Origin: a virus
Strand: one strand, 5' to 3'
IMG/VR virus record: IMGVR_UViG_3300014819_000002
Coordinates: 73,175 to 103,126 of that record
DNA length: 29,952 nt
Within the stretch, counting starts at the first letter, position 1. Every line of letters starts with the position of its first letter. Both the position numbers and the translations under genes were made by a program. The notes under the pieces are model-generated. The model searched no databases. It was given only the letters and a program-made list of their open reading frames with translations, and was not told the origin of the DNA. Of this stretch, positions 6,448 through 26,874 are shown piece after piece.

Positions 6448-8289
6448 TTAAGTTGCTGTACCGATAATATCATAATCTGGATACTTCAACTCAAACATAG
6501 AACCTATAGGTCCAAATACAATTCCACGATTGGTATTTGCTTTAATATTTAGTTGTTCATCTGAGTACGTGCGACCATCGATAGTTCCATATACATTACC
6601 TATATCAATACTAACAATTGAAGCAACTCCTTCGACATTATATATGATATTCTGAATATCGCTCATTATAATAGGTTGATTAATCTCAAAATTTCTTATA
6701 TTCATATAGTTTCGAACTTTATTTAAAACATTTCGAAGAATTAATTCTTTATTTTGTGTTGGATCAATTACAACAGTAAATTTGAGTGTAATGTTAATAA
6801 CACGTGCATCTAATATATCGATAGCGTCAGAAATCAAACGATATTGATTAAGATATGTTGCTAAATTCTTCTTTAATGAATCTGGAGCGAATACCAACTC
6901 ATTTGATTCGTTTCTACAAATAACAAACAATTGAGAAACCAGTGGATTGTTTGGATTTGGTTCGATAGCTGCTCTATAAACTCTGCCAAAATTGGATGGT
7001 AAAGTATATACTCTAGCCAACAAATCTTCCTTGGAAACAATCCGATTTTGCATACCCATAAACGCTGATATTTTTGCTTTTAATTCATTTACTGTGGGTG
7101 GATCTTCGCCACCAGATGCTGGAGTCAAATTAATAACATCTATAGAATTTCTAACGAACGCTGCAACTTGCGGTAATGGATTTTTAGGAAAAAATATGTT
7201 CAAAGAAGTAACAGCATTAATTGTTTCCGCTTCAACATTATGATTTAAACCACCGCCAAATCTATACAATATATTCAAATTTGCATTTTCTGAAACTACT
7301 CCAAACGTTGTTGTTTGCAACAGATTTCCTGGATTAATTGCAAATCTAGAAAATGTTTTTTTGCCATATAATGGTAATGAATATTCGCTAGGATCTGGTA
7401 TAATATCATCATTAATGGTTGATGCTTTGCCACCACCTAATACGATACTTGTTGCTCTGGATTGTAATGCGGTATTTTTAGTAAATCGATATGGTGCTGG
7501 AATGGGCATAATATTTTCTGGCACCATTTTTTGATCATATTTTAAATTTGTTACTCTTTTATAAACAGTATCCTGTGTTAAGGATTCAACTTCATAATAT
7601 TCATTACCTAAACTGTCATTAACTTTAATGATTTCAGATACATTAGGATTTGATAAAGTTATTGTTCGAAAAGGTACAAAAGCACCAATACCGTAAGATT
7701 CTGTAGTTCTTTTCCCTGATATACATGTTCCTGTTCGGCTTAAGATATAATTTTGTGGTATACCATTAGCATTAGTATTTCCAACTACTATAGAAGCTTT
7801 TAAACTACCATCAGTTTTTGTCTCAGAAAAATCTAAATTTTCTGTTAATTCAAACTCAATACCATTTGTTGCTTTTACAGTCGTTCCTTCTTTTATAACA
7901 GGTAATGCTGTCGGGTCGGGTGTACCATCATTAGCTCCATTAGTAGGAACTTTAATATAAAAGGTCACAGAAACAACTGCCGGACTACTACCAACTATAG
8001 GAACTCCTGCTCGTCTTAAATGTCTTTCAATGTTATTTGTTTCAATTGATGTATCTGCAAATGATTCATGAAATTGATGATCTAAATAATAACTCTGCAT
8101 ATCTCCCACATATGCAGCCATATCTAATAACAATCCTCCAAGACTTGCTTCTGAAAAATCTCTTATGTTGTCTGGAAAATAAGAACGAGCATAATCAAGT
8201 AAATCATTACGTAAAGCGTCGAAATCTTTATTAAGATATCGTCTCTGTCGAATTTGTTTTAATAAATCTTTTTTTGAATCGTTTGCCAT
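6448..8289 (-). CDS. Baseplate wedge protein, T4 gp6-like (Baseplate_J family)
   Basis: The 613-residue protein matches the T4 gp6 / baseplate J family. Its N-terminus has the diagnostic YLNKDFDALRNDLLDYA, followed by FSEASLGGLLLDMAAYVGD and YYLDHQFHE. The middle carries the beta-rich J domain, and the C-terminal part (ILRNVLNKVRNYMN, then IIMSDIQNIIYNVEGV) fits the family's last domain. In T4, gp6 dimers join the six wedges into the ring around the hub. The ATG at 8289 follows a weak AAGTGA site. It lies 16 nt after the gp25-like gene, and in many T4-like phages the two genes are adjacent, which supports both calls. Length is close to T4 gp6 (660). Confidence 0.93.
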   Translation of the reverse strand: MANDSKKDLLKQIRQRRYLNKDFDALRNDLLDYARSYFPDNIRDFSEASLGGLLLDMAAYVGDMQSYYLDHQFHESFADTSIETNNIERHLRRAGVPIVGSSPAVVSVTFYIKVPTNGANDGTPDPTALPVIKEGTTVKATNGIEFELTENLDFSETKTDGSLKASIVVGNTNANGIPQNYILSRTGTCISGKRTTESYGIGAFVPFRTITLSNPNVSEIIKVNDSLGNEYYEVESLTQDTVYKRVTNLKYDQKMVPENIMPIPAPYRFTKNTALQSRATSIVLGGGKASTINDDIIPDPSEYSLPLYGKKTFSRFAINPGNLLQTTTFGVVSENANLNILYRFGGGLNHNVEAETINAVTSLNIFFPKNPLPQVAAFVRNSIDVINLTPASGGEDPPTVNELKAKISAFMGMQNRIVSKEDLLARVYTLPSNFGRVYRAAIEPNPNNPLVSQLFVICRNESNELVFAPDSLKKNLATYLNQYRLISDAIDILDARVINITLKFTVVIDPTQNKELILRNVLNKVRNYMNIRNFEINQPIIMSDIQNIIYNVEGVASIVSIDIGNVYGTIDGRTYSDEQLNIKANTNRGIVFGPIGSMFELKYPDYDIIGTAT

Positions 8290-8305: not shown

Positions 8306-8776
8306 TTACGTTATAAATAATGTGACTTCCAATAATTGTTCGGGATATGATGCCACTTGATATGCCAATAAAATATAGATTATTCCAGTATAAACGTTTT
8401 CTCTACGATCTGACCGGGATTCATAACCAAGCAAATTAACAAATGGCATATATTTTGCACATGCACTTTTAATTCGTCGCATCGCCTCACGATCGAAATT
8501 GTCTTTATTACTGTAATCTGTTAATAATGGACGAAGATTAGCACCAAAATCATACATCGCCAATCTCTCACCATGATTTGTTAAAACCAAATTCCTTAAA
8601 TTATCCGATATCTGATCGATATTGTTATAATTCATTTTGAATATGTTTATAGATTGAGATTCATCTAATTCAAGAGGCGTTTTGATTCCAATTGGTTTTA
8701 ATGGTGCACTTAAAATCGTATTGTTTTGCACACCAAATTGTTGTATACCAACATCTTTAAAAGAAAGCCTTGCCAT
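8306..8776 (-). CDS. Baseplate wedge protein, gp25-like
   Basis: The 156-residue protein belongs to the GPW/gp25 family. The diagnostic segment LVLTNHGERLAMYDFGANL lies at residues 63-81, followed by LRPLL and an amphipathic helix. The family normally has about 130-150 residues. In T4 the gp25 subunit sits at the inner end of each wedge and nucleates sheath assembly, and the conserved E-R and D-F-G residues seen here are part of that core. It is immediately followed by the gp6-like gene, its usual structural partner. No strong Shine-Dalgarno precedes the ATG, so translation may depend on the upstream gene. The family's lysozyme-like label is historical; I claim no enzymatic activity. Confidence 0.93.
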   Translation of the reverse strand: MARLSFKDVGIQQFGVQNNTILSAPLKPIGIKTPLELDESQSINIFKMNYNNIDQISDNLRNLVLTNHGERLAMYDFGANLRPLLTDYSNKDNFDREAMRRIKSACAKYMPFVNLLGYESRSDRRENVYTGIIYILLAYQVASYPEQLLEVTLFIT

Positions 8777-9104: not shown

Positions 9105-10826
9105 TTATTCCCCAAATATTTTGGTAGATTTTACATTGAAATTGTATATGTTTTTTACGATATCATCAGAAGTAGTAATTGATTGATCAAGTTGTTGAAA
9201 CTGTACTTGAGTTCTAAGAACATTATTTGCAAGAGCAAATAATGAAGGAATATTTGAATATGGAACAGCTACTGCTTTTTGAAAAGCTTGTTCTAATGTT
9301 TCTTCAAGTTGGCCAATATGATCACGCAAAGCATTAATTTGATTTTGCAATTCTTCTATTGTTGCTTTATAAACTGTATAACGAATATATGGCTGTTCTA
9401 AGGTTGTAGCTCGACCTATATATATTTCATTCGCTTCTAATTGCATTTTTCCTTCTTGATTTAAAAGAATATATGCCAAGCTGCCATCTGGTGTTGTTGG
9501 ATTGGCATTTGGGTCTGATGAAATACTGTTAATATTTTGTTTTCCTTCACGGATTATAAGAATAGAACCATTTATACGTGCTTGTTGATCTTCAACTGGT
9601 TCTCTTCTAGCAATTATTCGAATATGATCTGCTTTGTTAACAACATAACTTCTTCCATGTTTTTCATTAACTGGTTGCGGTTGTGTATTCGGCAAACATT
9701 CTGGCGGATATATAATTCCTTCACCATTAATGTTTATTAATCGATAATTTTCATCAACTCTACTTTGTTGTACTATATAAACACGAGCCGCATCAAAAAT
9801 AGGATCCGGATTTCCTTCATCCGGATTTACTAAATTTTCTCTACCATTTCGAAATGGATTTTTATCCGTTTCTAAAAACCCACGAATATTATCAATTACC
9901 AATGGTGCAGTCGATTTTGAACCTGGCGGATTATCTGCGGGATCACCGCCTTTTGGATTTCTTCCAGCAGCCAAAAGATAACGACCTCGACCTGTCACCA
10001 AATCAATAGCTCCGGCTTGTCTCGGTGTTCCACCAGTTTTTGTTATATCAATAGGATTTGTTTGTATTGCTCCATCAATACTGCCATTCCTATCTTCTCC
10101 TAACATTATCAAAGAATTATTTGCACCTTGCAATATTAATTCTTGAGGTCTTTTTTTCCATCTTGGTACCGGTTCCGGAGTTATAAAAACTGTTGATGGT
10201 GCTTGATTAAACAAAAGATTATAAGGATTTTCTGTAGCATCATTTTCAACTGGTGGTAATGTTAGTGAATCAATTGTATTTCCGCCATTTGGAAAATCTT
10301 CTGGACCCGTTGAAACATCTCTTTCCGCTTCTTCTCTGGTGCTATATGATTGCAAATTATTAGCAGGATCAAATCTACGATCATTGTGTGTATAATTTGG
10401 ATCTTCTATTGTTCCATATGTAGGTACCCTAGTTAACCAATAACCCACCGATATTCCATTTCCAACTGGATCCTCATAAATAACATATACATGCTCACCA
10501 GGCGATATTGGCATCATCATATGTGATGAATAAAATGGAAACAATATCGTATTTGTTGATGCAGAATTACCACTTCCATTTGAAACTATTTTCGCAATAA
10601 TTGTATTAACAGTCATTAATTCAACTAAATCTGGATTATTGACGGTATCGATCAATACTTGTTTATATTCGTCTGTAAGACGTGTTGGATCAACAATAAT
10701 ATCAACAACAACAGCTCTTTGTAATATTGGAGTTTGCGTTGTAGAAAAGGAATCTGCAATAGCTGCACCAGTAATCCCCTGACCACCACTTAAACTTCTT
10801 AAAAATCCTTTTCCTGTTATAGCCAT
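9105..10826 (-). CDS. Baseplate hub / central spike protein, T4 gp5-like OB-fold
   Basis: The 573-residue protein shows the N-terminal OB-fold signature of T4-like gp5 at about residues 95-152: ILFPFYSSHMMMPISPGEH, then YWLTRVP and EDPNYTHNDRR. In T4, gp5 is the trimeric hub with an OB domain, a lysozyme domain and a beta-helical spike. Here I see no lysozyme motif; the middle is Pro/Asn/Gly-rich, and a segment of about 485-525 (TIEELQNQINALRDHI) is a likely coiled coil. The ATG shares one base with the previous stop (TAATG, 10824-10828), so translation is coupled. It fits between the hub-side and wedge genes. The gp5-like call is good for the N-terminus, less sure for the rest. Confidence 0.75.
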   Translation of the reverse strand: MAITGKGFLRSLSGGQGITGAAIADSFSTTQTPILQRAVVVDIIVDPTRLTDEYKQVLIDTVNNPDLVELMTVNTIIAKIVSNGSGNSASTNTILFPFYSSHMMMPISPGEHVYVIYEDPVGNGISVGYWLTRVPTYGTIEDPNYTHNDRRFDPANNLQSYSTREEAERDVSTGPEDFPNGGNTIDSLTLPPVENDATENPYNLLFNQAPSTVFITPEPVPRWKKRPQELILQGANNSLIMLGEDRNGSIDGAIQTNPIDITKTGGTPRQAGAIDLVTGRGRYLLAAGRNPKGGDPADNPPGSKSTAPLVIDNIRGFLETDKNPFRNGRENLVNPDEGNPDPIFDAARVYIVQQSRVDENYRLININGEGIIYPPECLPNTQPQPVNEKHGRSYVVNKADHIRIIARREPVEDQQARINGSILIIREGKQNINSISSDPNANPTTPDGSLAYILLNQEGKMQLEANEIYIGRATTLEQPYIRYTVYKATIEELQNQINALRDHIGQLEETLEQAFQKAVAVPYSNIPSLFALANNVLRTQVQFQQLDQSITTSDDIVKNIYNFNVKSTKIFGE

Positions 10827-12088
10827 TACATTCCGTACTTCTTAATGCCCAATATCTGATTGATAGGTGCAAAAGCACCAGTTAACTTATATAACTTACC
10901 ATTATATTTGAAAGCTATTCCTTCCATAGAACTGGTAATACGATCTAAAGATCGAAGACGACTAAGTTCGCTATCGAGAATCTGATTCTGGTGTTCTCCA
11001 CCAGAACTACGTATATGTTCTATAGCCGATTGAACTTCGTCTTTTAATCTTTTAACTTCTTCATTTGGGTTCAATATTAGATAACTTTGAACGCCCTGTA
11101 ATACAGATATAGCAAAGCTTGTAATGATATTTCTTATTGGCTCTACAGTATTAGAATATAGTTTTGGTGCATTTCTAATAAGATTCAATACAACCGGAAG
11201 ATCAGCTTGCTGCAACAAACCTTCACTAATTAAATCTTTCAAAATAGGCTTTTTAGAAGTTATCGTTGCATTAAAATCGCCTATTAACTCGGCTAAATAT
11301 TGTTTTGTATCTTCATCAGCAACGAGTTTTGCCATATCTTCAGACATGAGTTTTTCTACAAACATGTCATTAAGAGTGTTATCATTGCTCATGCTATATT
11401 TATTCATTAATTCGTTAAGACCGTTAAGTGCTTCTTCTAGTGGCTCATCATTAGAAAGCTTTTGTAGAGGAACCATAACTGGGCTCAATACTTTCCATCC
11501 AGAATTCTTTATTGCTAACTGCATTCGGTTAACAGAAGAAACTAATCTGGCAAAGTTTTTTGAAGTATCTATTGTTAAGGGTTGACCGTTTTCATCATAT
11601 ACGGTTCCACTTTCATGAAATATAACAGCATCTTGATCGTAGTTAATTACATTTGGATTTAATGTTCCAACAATCTCTGCCGAATACCAAATCTTCCCAT
11701 CATTAAATATTTTTTTTCTTTCGGTAGCAGATATAGCAGCTATAGCAGCAGACATTATTTTATATGCTTTAGTAAATGCAGCAGCAACATTTGGTTTATC
11801 TGCCCAACGACTTTCAACTTCATCAGCACCCATGCCGCCAGTCTTTATGTTTCCGATATTTCTAGCAAATCTTAAACCGGTAGAGGGTTCAAATGTAAAA
11901 AATATATTTTGACCATCTAACTTTTCTGTAACACTTTCTAATTTGCCTTTAGTAGCTTGATTAAAAACAGCTTTTATTTCTCCAAAAGTTAACTCTTGAT
12001 CTTCATACAAATGGGACATATGGCCACCAAGACCACCCTCATTCATATTTTCAAAAAGTTGTTTTATATAAATGTTGTTCTGTTTCAT
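10826..12088 (-). CDS. Nucleotidyltransferase/ligase-fold-like protein in tail cluster
   Basis: The 420-residue protein carries, in order, elements of the covalent nucleotidyltransferase superfamily (DNA/RNA ligases, capping enzymes). These are EKLDGQN (K56-x-D-G, motif I), an FARNIGN strand with Arg76, SAEIVG (136-141, motif III-like Glu), MEGIAFKY (388-395, motif IV E-G-I-x-x-K) and YKLTG (400-404, motif V-like). A helical insert (about 210-380) separates the early from the late motifs. I do not know its substrate. The position beside gp5-like and gp25-like genes is odd for a repair ligase and could mean a structural derivative of the fold. The gene starts inside the stop of the preceding gene (ATGA overlap). 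The function is inferred from motifs only. Confidence 0.65.
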   Translation of the reverse strand: MKQNNIYIKQLFENMNEGGLGGHMSHLYEDQELTFGEIKAVFNQATKGKLESVTEKLDGQNIFFTFEPSTGLRFARNIGNIKTGGMGADEVESRWADKPNVAAAFTKAYKIMSAAIAAISATERKKIFNDGKIWYSAEIVGTLNPNVINYDQDAVIFHESGTVYDENGQPLTIDTSKNFARLVSSVNRMQLAIKNSGWKVLSPVMVPLQKLSNDEPLEEALNGLNELMNKYSMSNDNTLNDMFVEKLMSEDMAKLVADEDTKQYLAELIGDFNATITSKKPILKDLISEGLLQQADLPVVLNLIRNAPKLYSNTVEPIRNIITSFAISVLQGVQSYLILNPNEEVKRLKDEVQSAIEHIRSSGGEHQNQILDSELSRLRSLDRITSSMEGIAFKYNGKLYKLTGAFAPINQILGIKKYGM

Positions 12089-12546
12089 TGTTTAAGACCA
12101 GTTGTAGTTTTTTGAATTCGTTCATAAATATCATCTTCTGACATCATCTCATCCAAATCTTCTTCACTGGCTTTTGAAACTAACTCAGTTAACTTTAATA
12201 TTTGATCATTTGCTTTACTCATTCTTTCCATATAACGAGCCAAGTTTTGACCATGAATAGCGTGCTCATTAGGATTAGAATGAACATAACCGTAAAGGTC
12301 TATCCACATAATATAAGCATTCTTACGATCTTGCACCGCATTTTCATATATTTGACGCCACAAATGTTTTGTCTTTTCTTCTACTGAACTTATTCCATCC
12401 AATAATTCAGTAAAGTTTGCAACTTGTTTTATAATCTTTTGATCAATATGTGTAGTGTCTTCTGGAGTAAACTTAGTTTCTCCATTCCCGTAATCTTCTT
12501 GCGGTGTATTAATAATTGGTATTTGCTGTTTTTTATTTCTAGCCAT
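12085..12546 (-). CDS. Possible small terminase subunit (T4 gp16-like), else unknown
   Basis: The 153-residue protein is charged and mostly helical, with a flexible N-terminus. The core WRQIYENAVQDRKNAYIMW, then NPNEHAIHGQNLARYMER and SKANDQILKLTELV, resembles by eye the central region of T4 gp16, which has a comparable M-x(n)-T-N-R-E-I-L-K-L-H-K segment. Gp16 forms the oligomer that regulates the large terminase during DNA packaging. This likeness is a recollection, not an alignment result. The large terminase is not in the window. The ATG at 12546 has no clear Shine-Dalgarno, but a TATAAT-like box lies just upstream. If it is not gp16, it is an unknown helical protein. Confidence 0.55.
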   Translation of the reverse strand: MARNKKQQIPIINTPQEDYGNGETKFTPEDTTHIDQKIIKQVANFTELLDGISSVEEKTKHLWRQIYENAVQDRKNAYIMWIDLYGYVHSNPNEHAIHGQNLARYMERMSKANDQILKLTELVSKASEEDLDEMMSEDDIYERIQKTTTGLKQ

Positions 12547-12569: not shown

Positions 12570-13022
12570 ATGAAACAAGCTAAACAAGTATACATACATT
12601 TTACAGACTCAAAGGGCGCATTAGGCATTTACAAAAGTAAAGAGCTGTGGAGTAGTTCTTTCATTGAAGGCGTATATGCGGTTGCAGTTGGTGCACCATC
12701 CGTACCAGAAGTTCAACAAACAAGGCTAGGCAGAGCTAAGTCAAGGGATGTTGCCGTTCTCTTCACTACTACCGAATTACCAAACTACTGCTATCCAGAA
12801 GAATGTGTCTGGATAGCTGAAAAGATTCCGATCAAAGTCGTAAATATAATACCGACCAAAACCGCTCTAAAATATTTGAATGGAGAAACACCTTCAATCG
12901 GTAGCAATTTTGCTCAAAGATTAGCTATTCCAACAAAAGAAATACCAGAACCAGAAAATCCACCTGATTGGCTGTTTAAAGAAAATGTTAAAAATCTGTT
13001 AAATTATTTGCTTATTTGCTAA
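12570..13022 (+). CDS. Lone plus-strand gene; possible ADP-ribosyltransferase-fold protein
   Basis: This 150-residue protein is the only plausible plus-strand gene of the window. It starts MKQAKQVYIHFTDSKGALGI and shows YIHFT (H10), a GIYKSKELWSSS segment, GVYAVAVGA (Y36) and CYPEECVW (E77/E78). An H-x-T near the start, a central Tyr/Ser stretch and a later Glu recall the H-Y-[EDQ] arrangement of ADP-ribosyltransferase-like folds such as HYD1 or TRPT1/KptA types. That is a hypothesis only. The gene is divergent from the 153-residue gene (23-bp gap) and its 3' end overlaps the late sigma gene by 11 nt in convergent orientation. There is no Shine-Dalgarno. Codon content and the compact globular sequence argue that it is real. 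Confidence 0.65.
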   Translation: MKQAKQVYIHFTDSKGALGIYKSKELWSSSFIEGVYAVAVGAPSVPEVQQTRLGRAKSRDVAVLFTTTELPNYCYPEECVWIAEKIPIKVVNIIPTKTALKYLNGETPSIGSNFAQRLAIPTKEIPEPENPPDWLFKENVKNLLNYLLIC

Positions 13023-13851: not shown

Positions 13852-14233
13852 CCATCATTTCTCCACGTCGGAAACGTTCTCTCATTAAACGCTCTTGTAT
13901 TTCACGAATATCCGGTTCTTCCTCAACGATAACCGTATATTTTTGTTTGCTACGTTCTACAAATTTTAATGCAACACGATTAATAGACATCTTATTGTTT
14001 TTTACTTCTGCCATCGCTTCTTTTACAACTAGTTGAACTTCTTTGCTGTCAAAGAATAATCGCATTCCTAATATCTTTTCTAATGTCTTTTCTGTATCTT
14101 CTAAAGCCTCAATAGCATCAGAAAAATCATCTTCAATAATCATAATAATACGTGCAAAACGAATTAGATAAAATATTGATGTTGCCAACAATAAAAAGAG
14201 TATTAAAGATAATACGCTAATAAATATAATCAT
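13823..14233 (-). CDS. Single-span membrane protein with coiled-coil-like region
   Basis: The 136-residue protein has one strong N-terminal hydrophobic helix (FISVLSLILFLLLATSIFY, residues 4-22), followed by positively charged residues, consistent with a membrane anchor with its C-terminus in the cytoplasm. Residues of about 35-60 (DDFSDAIEALEDTEKTLEKI) form a likely coiled coil, and the rest is charged and basic, ending in a run of Arg and Glu. I recognise no family. The ATG at 14233 overlaps the stop of the upstream glycosyltransferase (ATGA), and the 3' end overlaps the sigma gene. No function is assigned. Confidence 0.7.
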   Translation of the reverse strand: MIIFISVLSLILFLLLATSIFYLIRFARIIMIIEDDFSDAIEALEDTEKTLEKILGMRLFFDSKEVQLVVKEAMAEVKNNKMSINRVALKFVERSKQKYTVIVEEEPDIREIQERLMRERFRRGEMMDEIPQEINR

Positions 14234-15408
14234 GCCAAAATATCCTTAAGAGCTTCAGTATATTTAACAGATACAGCTTCGTATGAATATTCATTCTTTA
14301 AAGTTTCAGCAAGTTCTTTTGCCCATTGCTGTGGAACACTAGTGCTACTAACAAACTTCTTAACTCTTTGTTTAAAATCATCTTCTTTGACATTTGCCCA
14401 GCGAGCATTAGGCATCCATATTTGATTATCTACACGACTCTGATGTATTGTTTCTAAACGATAATCAAATTTTACATATTTGCCTTTATTAAGAAATTCT
14501 GTATGAGCACTCCAACCGGTTGCCATAACTGGAAGTCCAGAAGCAGCAGCTTCTAATAAAGGAAGCCCAAATCCTTCCCCTCGTGTTGCGCTAACAATAG
14601 CTTTAATCTTTGGATGACGATACAATCCAGCAACTTCCTCATCTGTCATATCTCCATGAAGAAGATGAAACTTTGGAAATGCAGAACCTTTTTTTGTTTC
14701 CATTGTAAGTTGAGCCAACAAGTTTGTTGTTCTAATGCGATCAACCACTGTATTACGTCCTGTATTTGTTTTAACAATAACACCAATATCGGGATTATCT
14801 TTGAACTGTTCACTCAACCACTTAATAGTATAAAATAAGTTCTTACGATCATTTTCAGGATTATTACCAGTTAATTGGCCAAATACCAAGAAGTTAAAAT
14901 CGGTTGAGACATCTAAATCAAGTTGTGGTAGGTCTGATTTAGCAATAGCATCAATAAAAGCTTCCGGAATAACAACGATCTTTGTTTTTACTTCTCCAGT
15001 ATTTGTAAATACAGACTTAACAAATTCTGATGGAACAATAACAAGATCCATACGATTAATCGCTGAAATCCATGCCGGATTACAAACATCACTTTCAACG
15101 CCGGCTGTCAGACCAACATTATAATCTGCCAGAAAAGGATTCCATTCATTTGGAAGTTGCAACTGTAGAGAAACATCATATTTGTCTCTTTTACCAGCAG
15201 CTTGAAGTAGGCGACCAACAAGCCCATCTTGTGCATAAACATCTACAAGCCATGGTGTAGCACCCCAAGGAAGTGGCTCGGTGACCACATCAATATTACC
15301 GGTCTTATCAGCCAAATCAAATAACCAGCGAGCAATCTGACGGGCGTGCACTCCATAACCACTTTCTGAAAGAACAGGACCACGAAGTATAACTGTTTTT
15401 TTTGTCAT
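14230..15408 (-). CDS. GT-B glycosyltransferase (GT4-like)
   Basis: The 392-residue enzyme has the GT4 C-terminal signature TRGEGFGLPLLEAAASG, the E-x7-E motif that binds the nucleotide-sugar ribose and phosphate (Glu278 and Glu286). The N-terminal domain opens with VILRGPVLSESGYGVHA, an acceptor-side Gly-rich loop. An in-frame GTG at 15426 would overlap the upstream stop, but ATG at 15408 is preferred because AAGGGA lies 7 nt before it. The donor and acceptor are unknown. It is the last glycosyltransferase of the cassette, so it may act on the same glycan as the genes upstream. Catalysis in this family is usually retaining. Confidence 0.85.
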   Translation of the reverse strand: MTKKTVILRGPVLSESGYGVHARQIARWLFDLADKTGNIDVVTEPLPWGATPWLVDVYAQDGLVGRLLQAAGKRDKYDVSLQLQLPNEWNPFLADYNVGLTAGVESDVCNPAWISAINRMDLVIVPSEFVKSVFTNTGEVKTKIVVIPEAFIDAIAKSDLPQLDLDVSTDFNFLVFGQLTGNNPENDRKNLFYTIKWLSEQFKDNPDIGVIVKTNTGRNTVVDRIRTTNLLAQLTMETKKGSAFPKFHLLHGDMTDEEVAGLYRHPKIKAIVSATRGEGFGLPLLEAAASGLPVMATGWSAHTEFLNKGKYVKFDYRLETIHQSRVDNQIWMPNARWANVKEDDFKQRVKKFVSSTSVPQQWAKELAETLKNEYSYEAVSVKYTEALKDILA

Positions 15409-15422
15409 CTCTTTATCCCTTA

Positions 15423-16754
15423 TCACTTAATGTTGATTAACTTGTTAGCAAGAGCAGGATTAATAGTTGTCAATGTCCAACGTTTATTTTTTCCAGCTTC
15501 TTTATTTGCCTTAAAATCTTCTACACACTTTAACATAGTTTCGTGCCATTGTTGAACCATATTTTCATATTTAAATTCATGTTCAAGATATTCTGCCGCT
15601 TTCTCACGAAATTCTGTTTTCTTTTCTGGGGTCCATGAATATATTTCCATAAAAGCATCTGCCAGTTGTTTCTCTGTACAAAAGTCTTCAAAAATATATG
15701 GAACCATTTGTGAACCAACCAATGAACGTTTGGCTGGTTCTATAGCAACGCCATATTGATATCCATTACGATAATCTTCCACTTGACGTGTTTCTCCACC
15801 GGTCTTTAAAGCAATTATTGGCTTACCAACTTGTAAAGAAATAAGAGTAGAAAGACCGAAACCTTCATTCTTAGAGATATTAACAGTGACATCTGCAATG
15901 TTGTGCATAACGTTCATTTGTTCAAATTGAAGGCGATCATTTGAGAACCAAACGTTATCATTTAATCCAAGCATATCGGACACTGCAAGAATATTTGGTC
16001 CTTCTACATCAGCAGGATCTGTATGCATGATTAGAACAGCCTTACGATGACCCTCTTTTTTTTCTAATGCATCAAGAAATTGTTTCCAAGCATATAAAAC
16101 GTCATTTGGCATTTTACGAGTGGCATTACGATTAACCCAAAGAGCTTTGAACCAATCTGCTTTAGAACCAAAATTCTGTTGTTTTAATTGAGTAATTTTT
16201 TCCTCTGGTAACGTATTGTATACAGCTTTTGGAAAAGTGTGAGGAATGTAATTTGTTTTATTTGGGAAATGCGGTTTTACTAGCTCGAATGTCTTATAAG
16301 AGAGACAGTTAATAAGATCGGTGCTTTCATACCATGGATAGTTAAATGCTGGATATGGATCATTATCCCAAACGTGCCAATAAACGATTGGACAAACCTG
16401 ATGAATTTCATCTTCCATTTCCCAAAGCCAAATGAACTGACGAGGATCGGTAAATAGGAAGATAGCATCTGGTTGTTCCGTAACAAGAAGCTGGCGTATC
16501 AATTCTTTGCTTCCAAAGCCGTCTACAGGCTTTACAATGAAGTCAGGGTTGACAGCTATCGTGTCATACTTTGCGTGCTTCATAGCGCCACCTAAGCAGC
16601 GGAATGACCATTGACCGGTCTTTACTAGTCCATCAATAAGAAATCGAGCTTGAACACCAACACCTGAAGGGGCGAGTGGGTGATCCGAAAGGGTTATAAC
16701 CTTGTATTTCTTTTTGAAATTAAAAGCGGTGAGAAATGTGTTCTCTTCTGACAT
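15423..16754 (-). CDS. GT-B glycosyltransferase (GT4-like, atypical second motif)
   Basis: The 443-residue protein shows HPLAPSGVGVQARFL near the N-terminus, a sugar-binding acceptor loop, and KNEGFGLSTLISLQVGKP near 296-312. The first Glu (E297) of the GT4 E-x7-E motif is present, but the second is replaced by hydrophobic Ile in LISLQ, which is unusual and may mean a shifted residue or reduced activity. RNATRKMPNDVL is likely part of the donor site. The Shine-Dalgarno is a full AAGGAG 7 nt before the ATG at 16754, suggesting strong initiation. The substrate is unknown. The gene is followed closely by the second GT-B gene. Confidence 0.8.
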   Translation of the reverse strand: MSEENTFLTAFNFKKKYKVITLSDHPLAPSGVGVQARFLIDGLVKTGQWSFRCLGGAMKHAKYDTIAVNPDFIVKPVDGFGSKELIRQLLVTEQPDAIFLFTDPRQFIWLWEMEDEIHQVCPIVYWHVWDNDPYPAFNYPWYESTDLINCLSYKTFELVKPHFPNKTNYIPHTFPKAVYNTLPEEKITQLKQQNFGSKADWFKALWVNRNATRKMPNDVLYAWKQFLDALEKKEGHRKAVLIMHTDPADVEGPNILAVSDMLGLNDNVWFSNDRLQFEQMNVMHNIADVTVNISKNEGFGLSTLISLQVGKPIIALKTGGETRQVEDYRNGYQYGVAIEPAKRSLVGSQMVPYIFEDFCTEKQLADAFMEIYSWTPEKKTEFREKAAEYLEHEFKYENMVQQWHETMLKCVEDFKANKEAGKNKRWTLTTINPALANKLINIK

Positions 16755-16817
16755 TACTATCTCCTTATGATGTTGATATTTTCAGCAATAAATGCGGATA
16801 TGTTTAAAATTAGAATA

Positions 16818-17801
16818 TCAAAGATTTAATGCACGATGGTAATCTGCTTCATACATCATATGAGCTAAATCATGAAATGTTGTCTTTGGTTTCCATCCTA
16901 ATACTCTTTGTGCCTTAGAACTATCCCCAAGTAATATTGGAACCTCATGTGGGCGATATAATCTTGGATCAATCTTTACATGTTTGCTAACATCTAAACC
17001 AGCATGTTCAAAGACAACTTGTAGAAACTCACTTACTGTATGTGTTTCTCCGGTAGAAATAACATAATCATCGCCTTTTGGCTGCTGCAACATTAACCAC
17101 ATAGCCTCTACGTAATCTCCAGCAAATCCCCAATCTCTTTTTGCATCAAGATTTCCAAGATACAATGTTTCTTGTTTGCCCAACTTTATATTAGCCGCAG
17201 CAAGAGTAATCTTGCGGGTAACAAACGTCTCTCCTCTTACTGGACTTTCATGGTTAAACAATATGCCAGATGATATATGAAGCCCGTAGCCCTCACGGTA
17301 GTTACGGCAAAGATTGTGAGCATATAGTTTGGCACAGGCATAAGGAGAAGCTGGTGTCATGCGTGTCTCTTCATTTTGAGGAACGTTAACATTGTCTCCA
17401 TACATTTCTGAGGATGATGCCTGATAGAAACGTGCTTGTGGACAGATTAGCCTATAAGCCTCTAGAAGTTTCAGAGTGCCTCCACCTACTACGTCTAGGG
17501 TTTCCTCTGGAACTTCAAATGAAACCCTTACATGGCTTTGTGCGGCGAGGTTATATATCTCGTCGGGCTTATACTTGGTAAGAAGAGAATATATAGAACT
17601 TGAATCGGTCATATTGCCATATTCAAGCTTGAAGTTTGGATGACTGAAAATTGCAACATCATCTAATCTGTCTGTTGTTATAAGAGAAGTTCTTCTCTTC
17701 ATTCCTGTAACACGATAACCTTTATCAAGTAATAACTTTGCTAAATAAGAACCATCCTGACCTGTTACGCCAGTTATAAACGCAGTCTTTTGTGTTGACA
17801 T
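16818..17801 (-). CDS. gmd: GDP-mannose 4,6-dehydratase
   Basis: The 327-residue short-chain dehydrogenase/reductase converts GDP-mannose to GDP-4-keto-6-deoxymannose. Evidence: the NADP-binding [11 protein letters not shown] (residues 11-20), SSSEMYG (129-135, with the catalytic-type Ser and Glu132), YACAK (Y154-x3-K158) and [16 protein letters not shown] in the GDP-mannose pocket, all typical of Gmd. It is near the usual length (about 345). The ATG overlaps the stop of the fucose synthase gene by one base (TAATG) with GAGG 7 nt before it. The two together make GDP-L-fucose. Known in several T4-like cyanophages; inferred role here is sugar for host or virion glycan. Confidence 0.95.
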
Positions 17802-18772
17802 TATAATCCTCTTACATTCGGATATGCTATTTTAAACCAATCACAGGTCTTCTTTAAAGCAATATCAAATGGAGTATAATCTTCTAGACGCCAACTTGTT
17901 TTTTCTAATAATCTTTTATTGGAAGATGGTTTTCTAAACTGACCAGATGGTTTTTCAGTATTAAAAACTAATTTGCCATCGTATTCAAGATATTCAACTA
18001 GTTTCTTTGCTACAGAAGCTATTGAATGTTCTTCTGTATTTCCGATATTGAGAGGCTGATCATCATCGTATTCTTCCGACACTTTGAGCAATATTCGAGC
18101 TATATCGCCGGTATATGTGAACTCTCTTAGTGGGCTACCATCTCCCCATATTTCTACAGCAGGAATGTGGTTTAGTTTGGCTTCCCATATTTTTCTCATA
18201 AGAGCTGGGATAACGTGCCCATCTTCTAAATGGAAGTTATCATGTTCGCCAAATAGATTATTTGGAATAACGTTAATGTAATTGACCCCATGCTGCTTAC
18301 GATATGCTCTCGTCTGCACGTCCAGCATCCTTTTAGCATAAGCATAACCAAAGTTACTATCATGTGGTGGTCCGAGGTGTAACTGGTCTTCTGTGAGCGG
18401 ATAGGAGACGTATGGAGCATCTGGATAGACACAGGTAGATAATACAGAAACCACTTTCGGTATGTTGTAACTTACACAGGATTCCAGCAAATTTGTGTTA
18501 ATAACTGTATTGTCATGAAAGAAGGTTGCCAATTTATCGCTATTTGCTTTGATTCCGCCTACTTTAGCTGCAAGATGAAAAACGCAAGATATCTTACTAT
18601 ATAAGCCTTGCCCATCTATAGCTTCAAAATCTCTTAAGAAATTATTAACATCATCTTTGTGCAATAAATTCAATATTGAACTAGTTGGAGCTATGTAATC
18701 GATATTACGCTTTTCAATATCGAATACGAGCGCCTTGCCCAACATTCCATGTGCTCCGGTAATCAATATCAT
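17801..18772 (-). CDS. fcl: GDP-L-fucose synthase (epimerase/reductase)
   Basis: The 323-residue SDR enzyme performs the 3,5-epimerisation and NADPH reduction that follow the dehydratase. Visible motifs: TGAHGMLG (5-12), [10 protein letters not shown] (68-77), STCVYP (S112-P117, with the catalytic Cys114), GYAYAKR (Y143-x3-K147) and [18 protein letters not shown], diagnostic of Fcl. [12 protein letters not shown] is also present. The sequence has the family length. The N-terminal ATG at 18772 has no strong Shine-Dalgarno. The adjacency with gmd is the usual operon order in reverse: here fcl is upstream of gmd. Confidence 0.95.
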
Positions 18773-18799
18773 GTTAGATTCAATATTGAATATTCTTTA

Positions 18800-19417
18800 T
18801 CATTTTGCCCAAATCATTCCCCATTTTTCTTTTCGTTGTGGCTTCATATTCATCTGATTCAAGCATTCTTGTCTTGTCATCCACATAGTCGGTTCAACAA
18901 GATGATCATCTCCATTGATAAAACCAAATTCTGCATAACCAAGATTTTCCAGATACTCTACAACAGAACGAACATTATGCTCTTGCTCCTCAGCCCATTC
19001 AAAACATATTTTGTTTTGTTTTTTTGTTAGACCTTGTATGGCTTCAAATTCATATCCTTCCACATCAATTTTTATAATTTGTGGCGATGGAAATTTCTCT
19101 AATATTTTATCAATTGTTATTGTTTTTTTGATAGTGCGATTCCAGTTATACTTTCCAGTAAATCTAGAATTTGTTATCCACTCTGTTGATGCAGTTGATA
19201 TGGTATCAGCATTTGACAAATAAAAATCAACTTCAATGTCTGAAGTTTTCGAAACAACACGCTCAATTATTGTGACTGCTTTATTTTGAAATTTTGTTAT
19301 TAATAACTTTACAAGATGTTCATTCGGTTCAACCATAACCACGTGAGCATCTGGATATTTTTGCAAAGCCGCTTCAGCAAATTTTCCGGCATTAGCCCCT
19401 ATATCATATATGTACAT
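18800..19417 (-). CDS. FkbM-family SAM-dependent methyltransferase
   Basis: The 205-residue protein has the SAM-binding YDIGANAGKFAEAAL at residues 4-18, VMVEPNEHLVK at about 27-37, and the FkbM hallmark IKIDVEGYEFEAIQGL near residues 115-130. A short C-terminal cap follows. The family O-methylates sugars, including glycan residues. The short length (usually 220-270) reflects a minimal N-terminus: the ATG at 19417 starts almost directly at the SAM motif. AGGAA lies about 10 nt upstream. It lies directly upstream of fcl and probably modifies the glycan built by the same cassette. Substrate inferred only. Confidence 0.85.
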   Translation of the reverse strand: MYIYDIGANAGKFAEAALQKYPDAHVVMVEPNEHLVKLLITKFQNKAVTIIERVVSKTSDIEVDFYLSNADTISTASTEWITNSRFTGKYNWNRTIKKTITIDKILEKFPSPQIIKIDVEGYEFEAIQGLTKKQNKICFEWAEEQEHNVRSVVEYLENLGYAEFGFINGDDHLVEPTMWMTRQECLNQMNMKPQRKEKWGMIWAK

Positions 19418-19443
19418 ATATTTAAATTCCTATTTTAAATTAA

Positions 19444-20430
19444 TCATGTAACTAAAAATTTTGTTATATAACGTATACTATTAATGTATGTATTAACAAA
19501 ATTCATTGCATTTGTTTTTCTTTCTTGCAAAGATATCTCTGGAAGTTTGTCTATAGAAGTTATTATCTCATCAGCAGATTTAAACTTCAAAACTGTTTGA
19601 GGTATGAGTTTAGTTTTAGATACAGTTTCATACAAAGGCAATTTTTCAATCATTATTATATTGCAACCACAGGCAGCGGCCTCACCCATTCTCACTGGAT
19701 ATTCTAGAATCACTGGCTGTACTTGTTCATGCAATACATATTGAGCTTGTTTATAATACAGAATGCATTGTTCCGGATCAATCTTTCCATTTTCAACAAA
19801 ATTAAACTTAATCTTATTTTTTAAATCTGAATGGTTTGATAGATAATTTGCAATTTTTAATATACCCGGTCTATTATTACCAGTACCAAAATAAACAAAT
19901 TTATATTTGCTTTCTTGAATTGAGGACATGTCTTGCTTTTCAGCTAAAGCACACGGCATATAAACTACATGGAGATTATCTAATATCTTATATGTAACAT
20001 CGTTCTTTTTTTCACTCTTGTCAAGAATAGAATTAATTCTAAGTAAATTTTGTCCTTCAAATCCTATGCATTGATAATCATAAGTTTTAAACGTTTCTGA
20101 ATACAAATGATTTATATTAATATCATACATGTACGACTTTGGAGCTAGAATAATATTAAGAGCTGGATGCTTCAAAGCCAGATTGATTATATTATTAATT
20201 TTAAAGTTGGTCCAAAATATTATGTTTCTAACATTAGTATAATCTTGGTACAAAATATCAGATTCGGTAAAAAATAAATCTATTACGCCATGTGATTTTA
20301 ATTGTTCTGGCGTAAGGCTTTTCGAATAATGAAACGTTTCATACCCTAACGCAGATAAAGCGTTAACGAACCCTTCAATCTTTTTATAATTATAATTTGA
20401 TTTATCTGCTCCATATACAATTGCTTTCAT
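19444..20430 (-). CDS. Probable GT-B glycosyltransferase
   Basis: The 328-residue protein starts MKAIVYGADKSNYNY and carries the C-terminal segment LEYPVRMGEAAACGCNIIMIE, which matches the donor-side helix of GT1/GT4 enzymes (E-A-A-A-C-G-x-x-I/V). FVYFGTGNNRPG opens the second Rossmann domain. AAGGAAATAAAATA upstream of the ATG at 20430 gives a good ribosome binding site. There is no diagnostic acceptor motif, so donor and acceptor are unknown. The N-terminal half is poorly conserved to my eye. Context: between two FkbM methyltransferase genes. Confidence 0.7.
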   Translation of the reverse strand: MKAIVYGADKSNYNYKKIEGFVNALSALGYETFHYSKSLTPEQLKSHGVIDLFFTESDILYQDYTNVRNIIFWTNFKINNIINLALKHPALNIILAPKSYMYDININHLYSETFKTYDYQCIGFEGQNLLRINSILDKSEKKNDVTYKILDNLHVVYMPCALAEKQDMSSIQESKYKFVYFGTGNNRPGILKIANYLSNHSDLKNKIKFNFVENGKIDPEQCILYYKQAQYVLHEQVQPVILEYPVRMGEAAACGCNIIMIEKLPLYETVSKTKLIPQTVLKFKSADEIITSIDKLPEISLQERKTNAMNFVNTYINSIRYITKFLVT

Positions 20431-20434
20431 TATT

Positions 20435-21070
20435 TTATTTCCTTAAGTAAAGAGCATCACCCCAATTGTATGGAGTGTTAACTGTTATAACACGTGTAAA
20501 GTCGTAGAGAGACAAATATTGATCGATTTCTTGAATAAGGGCGGCACCGACATATAATTGTTCAAAGTTAACTTCTGAATATATAGCTTTGATGTTGCTT
20601 GTTTTTAAAATGTCTCCAAAGCCTTTAAGGGCTTTTAATTCTGCACCTTGTATATCTAAATTGATGAAATCAACAGACATTATGTCAATATTTTTTTGAG
20701 CAACAAGAGTATCAAATCTCTTTGTTTTAAGTTTTCTAGTTTCAGTAACAGTAATGTGAGGATAATGAGATTGATGTGTTCCAAGCTCCAATATTGAACT
20801 AGATTGACCATTATTGGTTATTTTAAATTCAACTTCTTCATCATTAGCGTCAGACAAAACTTCACAGAAATAATGTTGTTCTATAGGATAACGATTGGTA
20901 TTGTCAAACAAATGTTTCATCATGAGTTTATTGGCTTCAAACCAATATATTTTTTTCACTCCAAATTTTATATAATCTTCTATCTCTTCTCCATGATGAG
21001 CACCAATGTGAACAATATTATTAAAAGATTGTTTATTAATTGCAATGCATTCACTATAAGGTATTAACAT
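20435..21070 (-). CDS. FkbM-family methyltransferase
   Basis: The 211-residue protein has VHIGAHHGEEIEDYI (SAM-binding Gly loop), IYWFEANKLMMK (acidic residue after beta-2) and FINLDIQGAELKALKGFG (the FkbM signature). It ends NWGDALYLRK, an ending almost shared by the 171-residue methyltransferase at 23606-24121 (GWGDVLYTR). This indicates that the two are paralogous. It overlaps the upstream gene by 7 nt. Known family activity is O-methylation of sugars; the acceptor here is unknown. Confidence 0.85.
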   Translation of the reverse strand: MLIPYSECIAINKQSFNNIVHIGAHHGEEIEDYIKFGVKKIYWFEANKLMMKHLFDNTNRYPIEQHYFCEVLSDANDEEVEFKITNNGQSSSILELGTHQSHYPHITVTETRKLKTKRFDTLVAQKNIDIMSVDFINLDIQGAELKALKGFGDILKTSNIKAIYSEVNFEQLYVGAALIQEIDQYLSLYDFTRVITVNTPYNWGDALYLRK

Positions 21071-21867
21071 ATATTACACCACTTGTATTCGAGTTCTACA
21101 TGTACAGAATTGTTTTCATAACCAGCAAACCAAGAAAAATCTATACGATTTCCGGATAGAAAATTTTTATTTAAATGTTCGATCGATACTATATTGCCAT
21201 GCCTATTATTAAATGTTTTTTGAACTATATTTGCAGGTATATTTAGTAATTTACTACCTAATGGATAACAGGTCATATATGTTTTGTTCCTATTAACAGA
21301 ATGTGATAACGACGCTTCCAATTGATTTGGGTTTGCAAAATTAATTTTTGCAATGCATTCATATATGAAATCAGTTTTATATATATTTCCATCGACAGAC
21401 ATCGGGTACCCCCAATCTCCTTCTGCGACCGTCCAGTTCCAAACATTTCCTTTTACAAAACTTGGAACTCTTGATGGTTGATTGGTTGCATAACAATGAT
21501 TAATTCCTTTCCAAAGTCTTAAGCTGTGAGCAATAACTAAATCATTGTCTTTCATGAAGCCAAGCTCTTTGTCATTCATTGAAAATGGTAATTTAAAAAC
21601 AATGTCATCAACCAAGAACATGGTAAACGGATTTGTTTTATCAACAGTAGCCAATAATGTCTCTTTAAATGTTTTGTCAATTAAAAATGTAATCGATTCA
21701 TTTTCTTGCATAAGAAGTTCATAAGCTTTTTTTGCATCATCATTACTGTATGTATATAATACAGATATCTTAGCCTGCTCATATTCTGCAAAATAATGCT
21801 TGAGGCTTCGTAAACATAAGTCTAATTGACAAGCTCTATCTTTTGAGAAAAGAATTACGTTGATCAT
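21064..21867 (-). CDS. Probable GT-A-type glycosyltransferase
   Basis: The 267-residue protein starts MINVILFSKDRACQLDLCL, a typical N-terminal beta-strand of a GT-A domain, and has MFLVDDIVF, a DxD-like acidic pair at the place where GT-A enzymes bind a metal. An in-frame ATG lies at 21882, but ATG at 21867 is preferred because its ATGA overlaps the previous stop and AGAGG is 5 nt upstream. I cannot name the sugar. The C-terminal half has WNWTVAEGDWGYPMS, an aromatic-rich stretch fitting acceptor binding. Family assignment is by fold pattern only. Confidence 0.65.
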   Translation of the reverse strand: MINVILFSKDRACQLDLCLRSLKHYFAEYEQAKISVLYTYSNDDAKKAYELLMQENESITFLIDKTFKETLLATVDKTNPFTMFLVDDIVFKLPFSMNDKELGFMKDNDLVIAHSLRLWKGINHCYATNQPSRVPSFVKGNVWNWTVAEGDWGYPMSVDGNIYKTDFIYECIAKINFANPNQLEASLSHSVNRNKTYMTCYPLGSKLLNIPANIVQKTFNNRHGNIVSIEHLNKNFLSGNRIDFSWFAGYENNSVHVELEYKWCNIC

Positions 21868-22601
21868 AGGCCCTCTAACCATGCATTATTTGTTGAAGTG
21901 TTTCTTCGATAAAGATATAACGGCTGTTTAATGACGCTGGTTTTTTGCATCAATAAAGTTACTTTTGTATTAAAATCACTATCTTCAGCCTTTTGACAAC
22001 GTAGCCCCATATTTCCTGGTAAAAATTTCATTCCAAAATCCCAAAGCTTTTTATAAAACAAACAACTAGCACCATGAACTTCATATTTGGGATCAACAAA
22101 GTAATGATTAATGCCTGGGGTATTAAGTCCAATATAAACATTCTTTGTAACGCTAGCGTGATCAATTGTTTCTATAGACTGAGGCAGACTATAGTTCAAA
22201 TGCTTTTGAATATCTTCTTCTGAGTAACAATGAACAAAGCCGCATAAATTATGAAGGCTATTGCTTTCTTTAAGCACCTGATGTTGTAACTCAATTCTTT
22301 TTGGAACACAAGCATCATCGGCATCTTGAAGAGTTATAAGTTCTCCAGTGGCTTGAGATATGGCAATATTTAGCGCATTCCATTTTCCTTTGTTTTCATC
22401 TAGGAAAATTGTTTTAATTGGATTTCTTTTGTATTTGTTCCTTAAATCTACGATTATTTCTCTACTATTATCAGTAGAACCGTCATCAATAATGATGACT
22501 TCTATATTTGAATAAGTTTGTTCATTAATGGATTTTATTGCGCCCTCAATGTATTTAGAATGATTATAGTTTGTTACTATAACAGTTATCTTTTCTTTCA
22601 T
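21864..22601 (-). CDS. GT2-family glycosyltransferase
   Basis: The 245-residue enzyme is a typical GT2: ITVIVTNYNHSKYIEGAI, VIIIDDGSTDNS (D39-D40 pair) and LQDADDACVP (DxD at 93-95) in the expected order and spacing. The C-terminal helix carries YLYRRNTS, found in many GT2 enzymes. These are inverting transferases that use NDP-sugars and Mg/Mn. AGAGGA just before the ATG and the ATGA overlap with the previous gene show coupled translation. The acceptor is unknown; the gene is part of the glycan cassette. Confidence 0.9.
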   Translation of the reverse strand: MKEKITVIVTNYNHSKYIEGAIKSINEQTYSNIEVIIIDDGSTDNSREIIVDLRNKYKRNPIKTIFLDENKGKWNALNIAISQATGELITLQDADDACVPKRIELQHQVLKESNSLHNLCGFVHCYSEEDIQKHLNYSLPQSIETIDHASVTKNVYIGLNTPGINHYFVDPKYEVHGASCLFYKKLWDFGMKFLPGNMGLRCQKAEDSDFNTKVTLLMQKTSVIKQPLYLYRRNTSTNNAWLEGL

Positions 22602-23602
22602 TTATTCCTCTCAATCCACTCTTTTACAATATTTGGATGACCCATATGAACTACGTAAGAGTTGTTTTTGCTTCCATCCCAAGGGCGATGAAACACGTGA
22701 CCTCCAGTACCCTGCTCTAACTCTAATGCCTTCTGTTTAATCATCTCATCAGTAATCTCTGCCCATCTAAGACCTGGAAAGAATGGATTGCCTCTTTCGT
22801 CCCTGTCTTCATTATACAAACTCTTCCAAGAAGCGTTCCAGAACGTTCTGAAGTTTCTTATCTTTCGCTCTATATTAAACCAAGAATAATGATGAACGCC
22901 AGGCAACTGAGAATATGTTTCGTTTAAAAATTTTTCTACTTTTGGCACTAGTTTTTCGTCTCTAATCGACGCCTGTTTCATTTGTTCAAATCCAGGCGGA
23001 AGATATCCAACACATGGTATCACATTTCCTGTTGCTTGAGATATATAATCGCAACCATCTGTACCATTTTGTGCATATAATAAACCATTTTCATACTTTC
23101 TAAGTTGTAATGGTATACCATGAATAATGTCAGGCTTATTTTTGGATAGCCGCCATTTCCAAACAGTTACATCTAATCTTGCCTTTCCTTCTCGTCCCCA
23201 ATAGTCAATAACAGGCAAAGCCATTAAATCATATGCGTTTTGTTTTATGAACGTTTCAGCTAATGGTCTGACTAGTGGTGCATGATTTTCATGCACTACT
23301 TCATCTATATCAAACTGCCAAAGAATGTCTCCTGTGCATTGTTTTCTTGAGAGGGTTTTACAATAACCATCAAAAATACCATGATTAGGTGCCGTCCAAT
23401 CAATCTTATTACTATGAACAACTTTTAATTTTGGCTCTTTTTCTGCCAAAACAAGTAAAGTTTTTAATGTATTATCTTTTTCATCGCTCGTATCAAATAC
23501 CACAACTTCGTCTGCAAAAGATAAATGACTACGGATGGATTCTAAATAAGGATACTCCATCTCTTCTGCATTTCTACAAGTTGTATAGGCACTTATTTTC
23601 AT
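22598..23602 (-). CDS. GT2-like glycosyltransferase
   Basis: The 334-residue protein begins MKISAYTTCRNAEEMEYP and has FADEVVVFDTSDEKDNT and FDIDEVVHENH, where D98-x-D100 is the expected GT-A metal-binding DxD. These are the marks of a GT2-like enzyme. A long C-terminal part with WNASWKSLYNED and GGHVFHRPWDG is unusual for simple GT2 proteins and may bind the acceptor. GAGGTGA upstream supports the ATG at 23602. Donor sugar and linkage are unknown. Confidence 0.8.
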   Translation of the reverse strand: MKISAYTTCRNAEEMEYPYLESIRSHLSFADEVVVFDTSDEKDNTLKTLLVLAEKEPKLKVVHSNKIDWTAPNHGIFDGYCKTLSRKQCTGDILWQFDIDEVVHENHAPLVRPLAETFIKQNAYDLMALPVIDYWGREGKARLDVTVWKWRLSKNKPDIIHGIPLQLRKYENGLLYAQNGTDGCDYISQATGNVIPCVGYLPPGFEQMKQASIRDEKLVPKVEKFLNETYSQLPGVHHYSWFNIERKIRNFRTFWNASWKSLYNEDRDERGNPFFPGLRWAEITDEMIKQKALELEQGTGGHVFHRPWDGSKNNSYVVHMGHPNIVKEWIERNK

Positions 23603-23605
23603 ATA

Positions 23606-24121
23606 TCACCTCGTATAAAGAACATCGCCCCACCCATTCTCACCGAGACTCTTACATATTTGTTTAAAACCAAATCCGGAAAGATACCGGTCCATATCAC
23701 CAAGACCTCGAACCTTGGTATGAATGTTTTTAATAAATGATGGAGAACGACTCAGATTATTTTCAAATCCTTGTAGGACTCTAATTTCGCTACCATCTTC
23801 AACATCAATAATTAAAGTATCATAATTTTCTATAGGTAAACGAGCGATATTTTCTTTCTGAAAACTATCAAAGGTCTTTGAAACATTATGAATATCCCTA
23901 TCTAAAAAGACTTCAGTAATGTATTGCTGTATTAGAGGATACTGCTTTGTTTTATTATAAAGTTCCGAGAGATTTCCACGATTTCTATCTAGCCATAGCA
24001 CATGATGCACATAGCTATCTGAATATATTCTTGCTTGATCACCAAGATTAGTTCCAACATGAATAACACCAGTGACAGGGCGTCCTAATTCTTTTAATAA
24101 TGTTCTAAATGTAATGTTCAT
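23606..24121 (-). CDS. FkbM-like methyltransferase, short and divergent
   Basis: The 171-residue protein has VIHVGTNLGDQARIY (SAM loop) and TLIIDVEDGSEIRVLQGFE, in which the usual D-V-E-G-x-E reads D-V-E-D-G-S-E. WLDRN replaces the W-F-E-A-N of the related protein at 20435-21070. It ends GWGDVLYTR, close to that paralogue. It is shorter than most FkbM enzymes, so activity is uncertain. An AGGA site precedes the ATG, which overlaps the stop of a tiny membrane ORF. By context it belongs to the glycan cassette. Confidence 0.7.
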   Translation of the reverse strand: MNITFRTLLKELGRPVTGVIHVGTNLGDQARIYSDSYVHHVLWLDRNRGNLSELYNKTKQYPLIQQYITEVFLDRDIHNVSKTFDSFQKENIARLPIENYDTLIIDVEDGSEIRVLQGFENNLSRSPSFIKNIHTKVRGLGDMDRYLSGFGFKQICKSLGENGWGDVLYTR

Positions 24122-26825: not shown

Positions 26826-26874
26826 GTTGACTCCGATGTCATTATGCAAATAAATATGATATAGGACTTGTATT

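Follow-up and report, generated by a model that had tools for sequence, protein, structure and literature searches.

A divergent ligase-type nucleotidyltransferase encoded among late phage genes, a candidate head-carried RNA end-repair enzyme

The window examined here, i.e. the right-hand 30 kb (29,952 nucleotides) of a 103,126-base virus record (IMGVR_UViG_3300014819_000002, whose genome, that of a large T4-like phage, we label G000), contains an intact, ATG-started open reading frame of 420 aa (10826..12088, (-)). In fold class its product is almost certainly a divergent nucleotidyltransferase of the polynucleotide ligase superfamily, and it is very probably active as an enzyme. Judging from the genes around it and from the N-termini of its relatives, the protein is also fairly likely to be packaged in the phage head. 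For the statement as a whole, namely that this is a late-made, head-carried RNA end-repair ligase that would be trimmed and then ejected, we consider the chances to be about even.

Relatives of the 420-aa protein are encoded in 212 stretches of IMG/VR. In an alignment of 44 distinct members (A2), the most distant rows of which have 28-35% identity to the window protein, F35, K56, D58, G59, R76, F128, E138, N146 and Y150 are invariant (44/44), as are E389, G390, F393, K401, N410, Q411 and G414. A reading of this DNA from the sequence only had picked out four motifs of the ligase/capping superfamily in their proper order, split by a helical insert, and the translation of 10826-12088(-) confirms that order: motif I, K56-L-D-G, with the predicted AMP-bearing lysine (11912..11923, (-); K, D and G 44/44), motif III, SAEIVG, with E138 (11666..11683, (-); E 44/44), motif IV, EGIAFKY, with E389 (10904..10924, (-); E and G 44/44) and motif V, YKLTG, with K401 (10877..10891, (-); K 44/44). 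Conservation extends to R76-N77 (11858..11863, (-); R 44/44, N 42/44), to the motif IIIa region NVINYDQDAVIFH, which contains N146, Y150 and F157 (11615..11653, (-); N146 and Y150 44/44), and to a C-terminal family signature, FAPINQ (10856..10873, (-); N410 and Q411 44/44). Since the motif residues are kept in 44/44 members despite such distant rows, the set is under constraint and is no chance pattern. A cellular origin of the family does not seem likely: only 12 matches came from a scan that covered 84,980 species, nearly all of them in MAG records, and several have phage genes for terminase, portal or capsid next to them.

The AlphaFold model of the window protein, made with the A2 alignment, has a pLDDT of 90.9 and a pTM of 0.86, with disorder (pLDDT below 50) only at residues 1-21. 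Its helices from about 176 to 378 fall between the strand at 153-164 (motif IIIa) and the strand at 390-395 (motif IV), which bears out the helical insert (residues 176-378 by DSSP of the model; 10955..11563, (-)). When this model was compared with the PDB by Foldseek, places 1-22 were all taken by RNA, tRNA or DNA ligases (best E 0.033), and for a second, independent model, that of L046, which belongs to a distant clade (31% identity), the top 25 places were all polynucleotide ligases, with T4 Rnl1 ranked first (E 0.013). No individual match of either model was below E 0.001, and structure prediction, which had been proposed as a check, thus supports a ligase-type nucleotidyltransferase fold by ranking and not by an individually significant match. 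A search of a viral structure library retrieved fused members of the family itself first, and then phage RNA ligases.

At the level of profiles, the only recurrent Pfam match across the 44 members is RNA_ligase (PF09414), which is weak throughout and is found in 22/44 (best 4.6e-5), the next family matching 3/44; the window protein itself falls below the PF09414 cut-off (12.2 vs 27 bits). Using hhalign with T4-type Rnl2 and Rnl1 alignments that were built for this analysis, P was 0.002-0.008 for Rnl2 and 0.003-0.005 for Rnl1, as compared with 0.088 or worse for control families (n=11). The Rnl1 match (P 0.005 in the Rnl1-type motif III region, FEFVAPxNRIVLxY) spans motif I and the stretch from III to IIIa, pairing NFEFVAPTNRIVLAY with YSAEIVGTLNPNVINYD. 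Searches of the window protein against PHROGs and against PDB sequences gave nothing useful, and the PDB profile matches were rejected as chance matches of the helical insert. Taken together, the motifs, the fold ranking, Pfam and the profile tests indicate that the core is a ligase-type nucleotidyltransferase, in agreement with the superfamily first suggested. That the protein is catalytically dead, or has an unrelated fold and carries the motif set by chance, is extremely unlikely: the individual fold matches are weak, as such an explanation would have it, but the catalytic positions are retained in 44/44 and ligases top both fold searches.

The proteins closest in kind are T4 RNA ligases 1 and 2, and the earlier suggestion of a late-made RNA or DNA ligase agrees with the data, RNA ligase relatives being ranked first. 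The likeness to RNA ligase 1 (RnlA, gp63), which is detectable only through profile or fold comparison, lies in the K-x-D-G of motif I (hhalign places K56-L-D-G against KEDG, K99), apparently in a motif III followed by N-x-I-x-x-Y (NVINYDQDAVIFH is aligned with NRIVLAYQEMKIIL of RnlA), in the EG of motif IV and in the lysine of motif V. A late-gene and virion link is known for RnlA/gp63, and the 420-aa gene likewise lies among late genes. In contrast to Rnl1, the window protein has no C-terminal helical specificity domain (the chain stops 19 residues past K401), has its motif IV glutamate and its motif V lysine 12 residues apart, and carries an extra helical insert of ~200 aa between IIIa and IV. 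With RNA ligase 2 (RnlB, gp24.1) it shares an EK-x-x-G-x-N motif I (K56-L-D-G aligned by hhalign with EKIHG, K35), weak similarity to PF09414, and the spacing from lysine to arginine, R76 being 20 residues past K56 just as R55 is past K35 in RnlB. Relative to Rnl2, too, the ~200-aa insert is additional, the C-terminal domain is absent and the Pfam score is below cut-off.

The start of the ligase-like gene overlaps (ATGA) an upstream 153-aa ORF (12085..12546, (-)), perhaps the small terminase, which keeps the same position in 26 loci but could not be named, a search for an annotated relative having found none. Its stop overlaps (TAATG) a downstream 573-aa ORF (9105..10826, (-)), a conserved neighbour that is hub- or spike-like by position. 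Gene order in the window clade is 153-aa ORF, ligase-like gene, 573-aa hub-like ORF, 88-aa ORF, gp25 and gp6, the last two being, in the window, a gp25-like baseplate wedge protein (8306..8776, (-); phrog_43, E 8e-5) and a gp6/J-like baseplate wedge protein (6448..8289, (-); PF04865 above cut-off; phrog_219, E 1.5e-13). The sequence-only reading had placed the gene in a baseplate block, coupled to a gp5-like gene. The overlap with the 573-aa ORF and the baseplate genes downstream are indeed there, but the name gp5-like finds no family match, and in most other phages the gene lies beside terminase, portal and prohead protease genes, with tags on relatives (see below) that also indicate the head and not the baseplate. 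Of the distant relatives with readable flanks, most have it immediately upstream of the genes for large terminase, portal and gp21 protease. The constant theme of the neighbourhood is late head and packaging genes, not baseplate genes, and packaging in the head would explain the location better than would a role in the baseplate. A prohead protease that reads as gp21 is encoded in the genome of the window (G000:12587-13189); its homolog in Mel-JY01, a cultured Microcystis phage, is annotated as a putative prohead protease (51% identity).

One may also consider that the ligase fold aids tail or baseplate assembly as a morphogenesis factor, in the manner of T4 gp63 in tail-fibre attachment. The T4 record does annotate RnlA with two roles, tail-fibre attachment and RNA ligation, and members of the window clade show an overlap of the gene with the hub-like gene near gp25 and gp6. 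Nonetheless we regard this explanation as quite unlikely, since terminase, portal and protease are the neighbours in most of the distant relatives, the partners described below are nucleotide enzymes, and every catalytic residue is retained.

In T4, an N-terminal propeptide some 10-19 residues long directs internal proteins to the head, and the cut made by the protease gp21 falls behind L/I-x-E (PMC9026906); in the T4 record, Alt begins MELITELFDE and gp24 begins MAKINELLRE. From its disorder and conservation, the N-terminal segment of the window protein (MKQNNIYIKQLFENMNE, residues 1-17; 12038..12088, (-)) is predicted to be a removable tag ending MNE/GG. Across the family, position 15 is L, M, I or V (40/40), position 17 is E (31/41) or M (10/41), and GG stands at positions 18-19 in 43/43; being kept even where the E is M, the GG may have a structural role. 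Untagged members begin MGG at exactly the [LIMV]xE/GG site, so that Met removal in these and cleavage after E in the others would leave an identical N-terminus. The strict T4 pattern (hydrophobic P7 and P4, L/I/M/V at P3, E at P1) is found in 17/39 distinct N-termini of the family vs 6.9% of shuffled sequences, figures that give no strict probability since the sequences are related. A plain [LIM]xE pattern was dropped, as it matches 23% of shuffled N-termini and 24% of undetected proteins of phage S-CREM2. Tags sit on relatives with differing N-terminal domains, fusions included, while some groups of the family begin directly with a HIGH domain and have no tag. The N-terminus of the window protein itself departs from the strict T4 pattern; of a T4-type propeptide (7-20 residues, ending L/I-x-E) it offers only an L-x-E (QLFE) and an M-x-E (MNE/GG) site, and it is the weak point of the packaging argument.

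A homolog (L187) on a 410-kb contig (G001:C82) begins MKSLIQYISE and sits in a run of tagged genes directly upstream of the prohead protease and major capsid genes, in which the pattern stands at the T4 position in 8/18 genes, against an expectation of 0.85%. The contig was binned as a Firmicutes MAG, and about 25 of its genes with MKxLxxYIxE-type tags (L195-L196, G001:C82:51603-82075), located upstream of those for prohead protease and capsid, form a probable catalogue of the ejected proteins of a jumbo phage. In the phage of the window, tag-like N-termini make the products of G000:12014-12583 (MKMTKTDFKGLIKECIRELIKE), 30737-31273 (MNMKLLKEYIRLIVENVILE) and 2007-2558 (MSKEVLKEYIKLFIHE) candidate head-internal proteins. 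The resemblance to T4 Alt and IPI-III lies in a short tag ending L/I-x-E in many relatives, an encoded prohead protease and a late head-gene setting; the window protein differs from them in that no sequence relation is seen, its tag is non-canonical, and packaging is a prediction for its family.

The virion proteome of S-CREM2 has been determined by mass spectrometry (PMC10665884). An aromatic-P4 rule picks out 5/28 of the detected proteins that are not among the assigned structural ones, vs 4/167 undetected proteins (Fisher P 0.004). The tag that we noted, F-[LM]-x-E, is on S-CREM2 (OR473000) gp6, gp12, gp13, gp14 and gp154, all of them detected in virions; they comprise a SAM hydrolase, a Cas9-like protein, a small protein, an APH-like kinase and a HIGH nucleotidyltransferase (MKNFSSFLTE). 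For enzymes of this sort, the authors of the proteome proposed entry into the host. Two genes from the HIGH nucleotidyltransferase gene, gp154, lies gp156 (L109:7013-7726), a Pol-beta-type nucleotidyltransferase (PF01909) that was also virion-detected.

It is possible, although we doubt it, that the window protein is an ordinary late-expressed RNA or DNA repair ligase, intracellular and unpackaged, whose location among virion genes reflects late transcription only. T4 RNA ligase 2 would be a precedent, since the T4 record has rnlB adjoining capsid gene 24 and no virion role is known for it. The absence of the strict tag from the window protein is in line with this, as is S-CREM2 gp87, a DUF6267 protein and possible cousin of the family, which has no tag and was undetected in virions. 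Against it stand the many tagged relatives, including fusions with a different N-terminal domain, the tagged battery adjoining protease and capsid genes on the 410-kb contig, and the occurrence of [LIMV]xE/GG within a disordered segment.

Certain partners recur with the ligase-like protein. A HIGH-superfamily (cytidylyltransferase-like) domain is fused at either end of relatives (Mel-JY01, L035, L048, L052, L059 and others), and some of the fused relatives also have a P-loop kinase of the Zeta/AAA_33 kind. Polyvalent proteins are injected and combine more than one effector domain on a single chain; the window protein has one domain only, and a fused relative such as L063 (1408 aa) would be nearer to this class. 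In one relative (L031:7155-9233) the ligase-like domain comes after a kinase-like N-terminal region of ~280 aa (phrog_4301, E 1.5e-15), not after a tag. The genome of the window has a separate HIGH gene (G000:19730-20302, PF01467 match), whose product has no N-terminal tag, and the tag-like N-terminus at G000:2007-2558 belongs to a HAD protein. On the 410-kb contig, a homolog of this HAD protein (28%, E 3e-7) begins MKSLIQYITE, and PHROG 415 (polynucleotide kinase) is matched by both (4e-10 for G000, 1e-11 for the contig). Thus, two very distant phages each encode the ligase-like protein together with a HIGH nucleotidyltransferase and an end-healing phosphatase that bears a tag. Phage RNA ligases and PNK-type phosphatases are already known, and the RNA repair sets of jumbo phages likewise join a ligase to a PNK-type HAD phosphatase, with a P-loop kinase in fusions (PMC7824862). 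Unlike in those sets, here two parts have capsid-targeting-like tags and lie among late genes, and the constant partner is a HIGH nucleotidyltransferase.

What looks like the same pair is present in T4-like cyanophages, as DUF6267 (PF19782) and a cytidyltransferase, which are fused in S-PM2 (S-PM2d138, T4-GC 71). DUF6267 resembles the ligase-like family in its KWDG, EGFV and K-x-V-x-R, in the same order of motifs, and in the fused or adjacent HIGH nucleotidyltransferase, and differs from it in having D instead of E in motif III. The S-PM2 DUF6267 protein was retrieved by fold (BFVD E 1.7e-3); the window protein had no Pfam match to DUF6267, and since hhalign with that family is non-significant (P 0.11), we do not claim membership.

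The enzyme might instead have another target, either nick sealing in the incoming genome as a DNA ligase, or adenylylation of proteins or metabolites in an NAD/nucleotide network together with the HIGH (NMNAT-like) domain. We find this unlikely. It is true that HIGH nucleotidyltransferase fusions occur in many members, that DNA_ligase_A_M has a weak match in 2/44, and that no other ligase was found in G000, which may be a fragment and where RlaP and DNA_ligase_A_M were searched for and not found; yet RNA ligases rank above DNA ligases in the fold, Pfam and profile tests, and the companion is a tagged PNK-type phosphatase.

In the scheme that we favour, the ligase-like protein would be made late, co-assembled with the prohead core, trimmed after E17 by the prohead protease and ejected together with the phage DNA. 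After ejection, K56 would be loaded with AMP from ATP and hand it to a 5'-phosphate, and the RNA end would then be sealed, the likeliest substrate being cleaved tRNA or other host-cut RNA. The ends would first be cleaned by the PNK-type HAD phosphatase, which, with the HIGH-superfamily nucleotidyltransferase, would be a partner from the same genome. More tentatively, we suggest that T4-like and jumbo phages may carry an in-capsid RNA end-repair kit, consisting of a tagged PNK-type HAD phosphatase, a HIGH nucleotidyltransferase and an insert-bearing Rnl1-like class of ligase, which would be released with the genome and undo host cleavage of tRNA or other RNA before phage expression.

Phage RNA ligases are counter-measures made after infection. 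If our scheme is true, a ligase that enters along with the DNA could be at work before translation is halted by host anticodon nucleases, so that repair would be available from the first moment of infection, and the few enzymes known to be ejected (T4 Alt, internal proteins) would be joined by another. Head-packaged phage enzymes are already known (PMC9503650); in the open-licence literature we found no earlier account of an RNA ligase packaged in virions, of a virion ligase-cytidylyltransferase pair or of a DUF6267 function, and no description of a ligase of such build or of a predicted head-carried RNA repair set. The scheme supplies a function that can be tested for a large phage family that has no name and, with less confidence, for DUF6267 (several hundred cyanophage records), and the tag search offers a sequence-only route to candidate ejected proteins of T4-like phages.

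Several other genes of this phage deserve mention. A lone plus-strand gene of the window (12570-13022, (+); 150 aa, N-terminus YIHFTDSKGALGIYKSKELW) looks by eye ADP-ribosyltransferase- or DarT-like and has no Pfam match; a 400-aa relative of its product has the same position in L031. Genes resembling, by eye, sugar-nucleotide dehydratases/epimerases, glycosyltransferases and FkbM methyltransferases are found amid the late genes at 14230-24121 (-). At 25295-27798 (-), intein halves (matches to Hint and Intein_splicing) break an IMP dehydrogenase gene into two ORFs, and between these lies an ORF that resembles a NUMOD3/DUF559 homing endonuclease; the arrangement suggests a fractured gene that carries a split intein. 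Elsewhere in the genome, G000:23522-25252 (+) encodes a Cpn60-family chaperonin of 576 aa (PF00118, E 3.5e-62).
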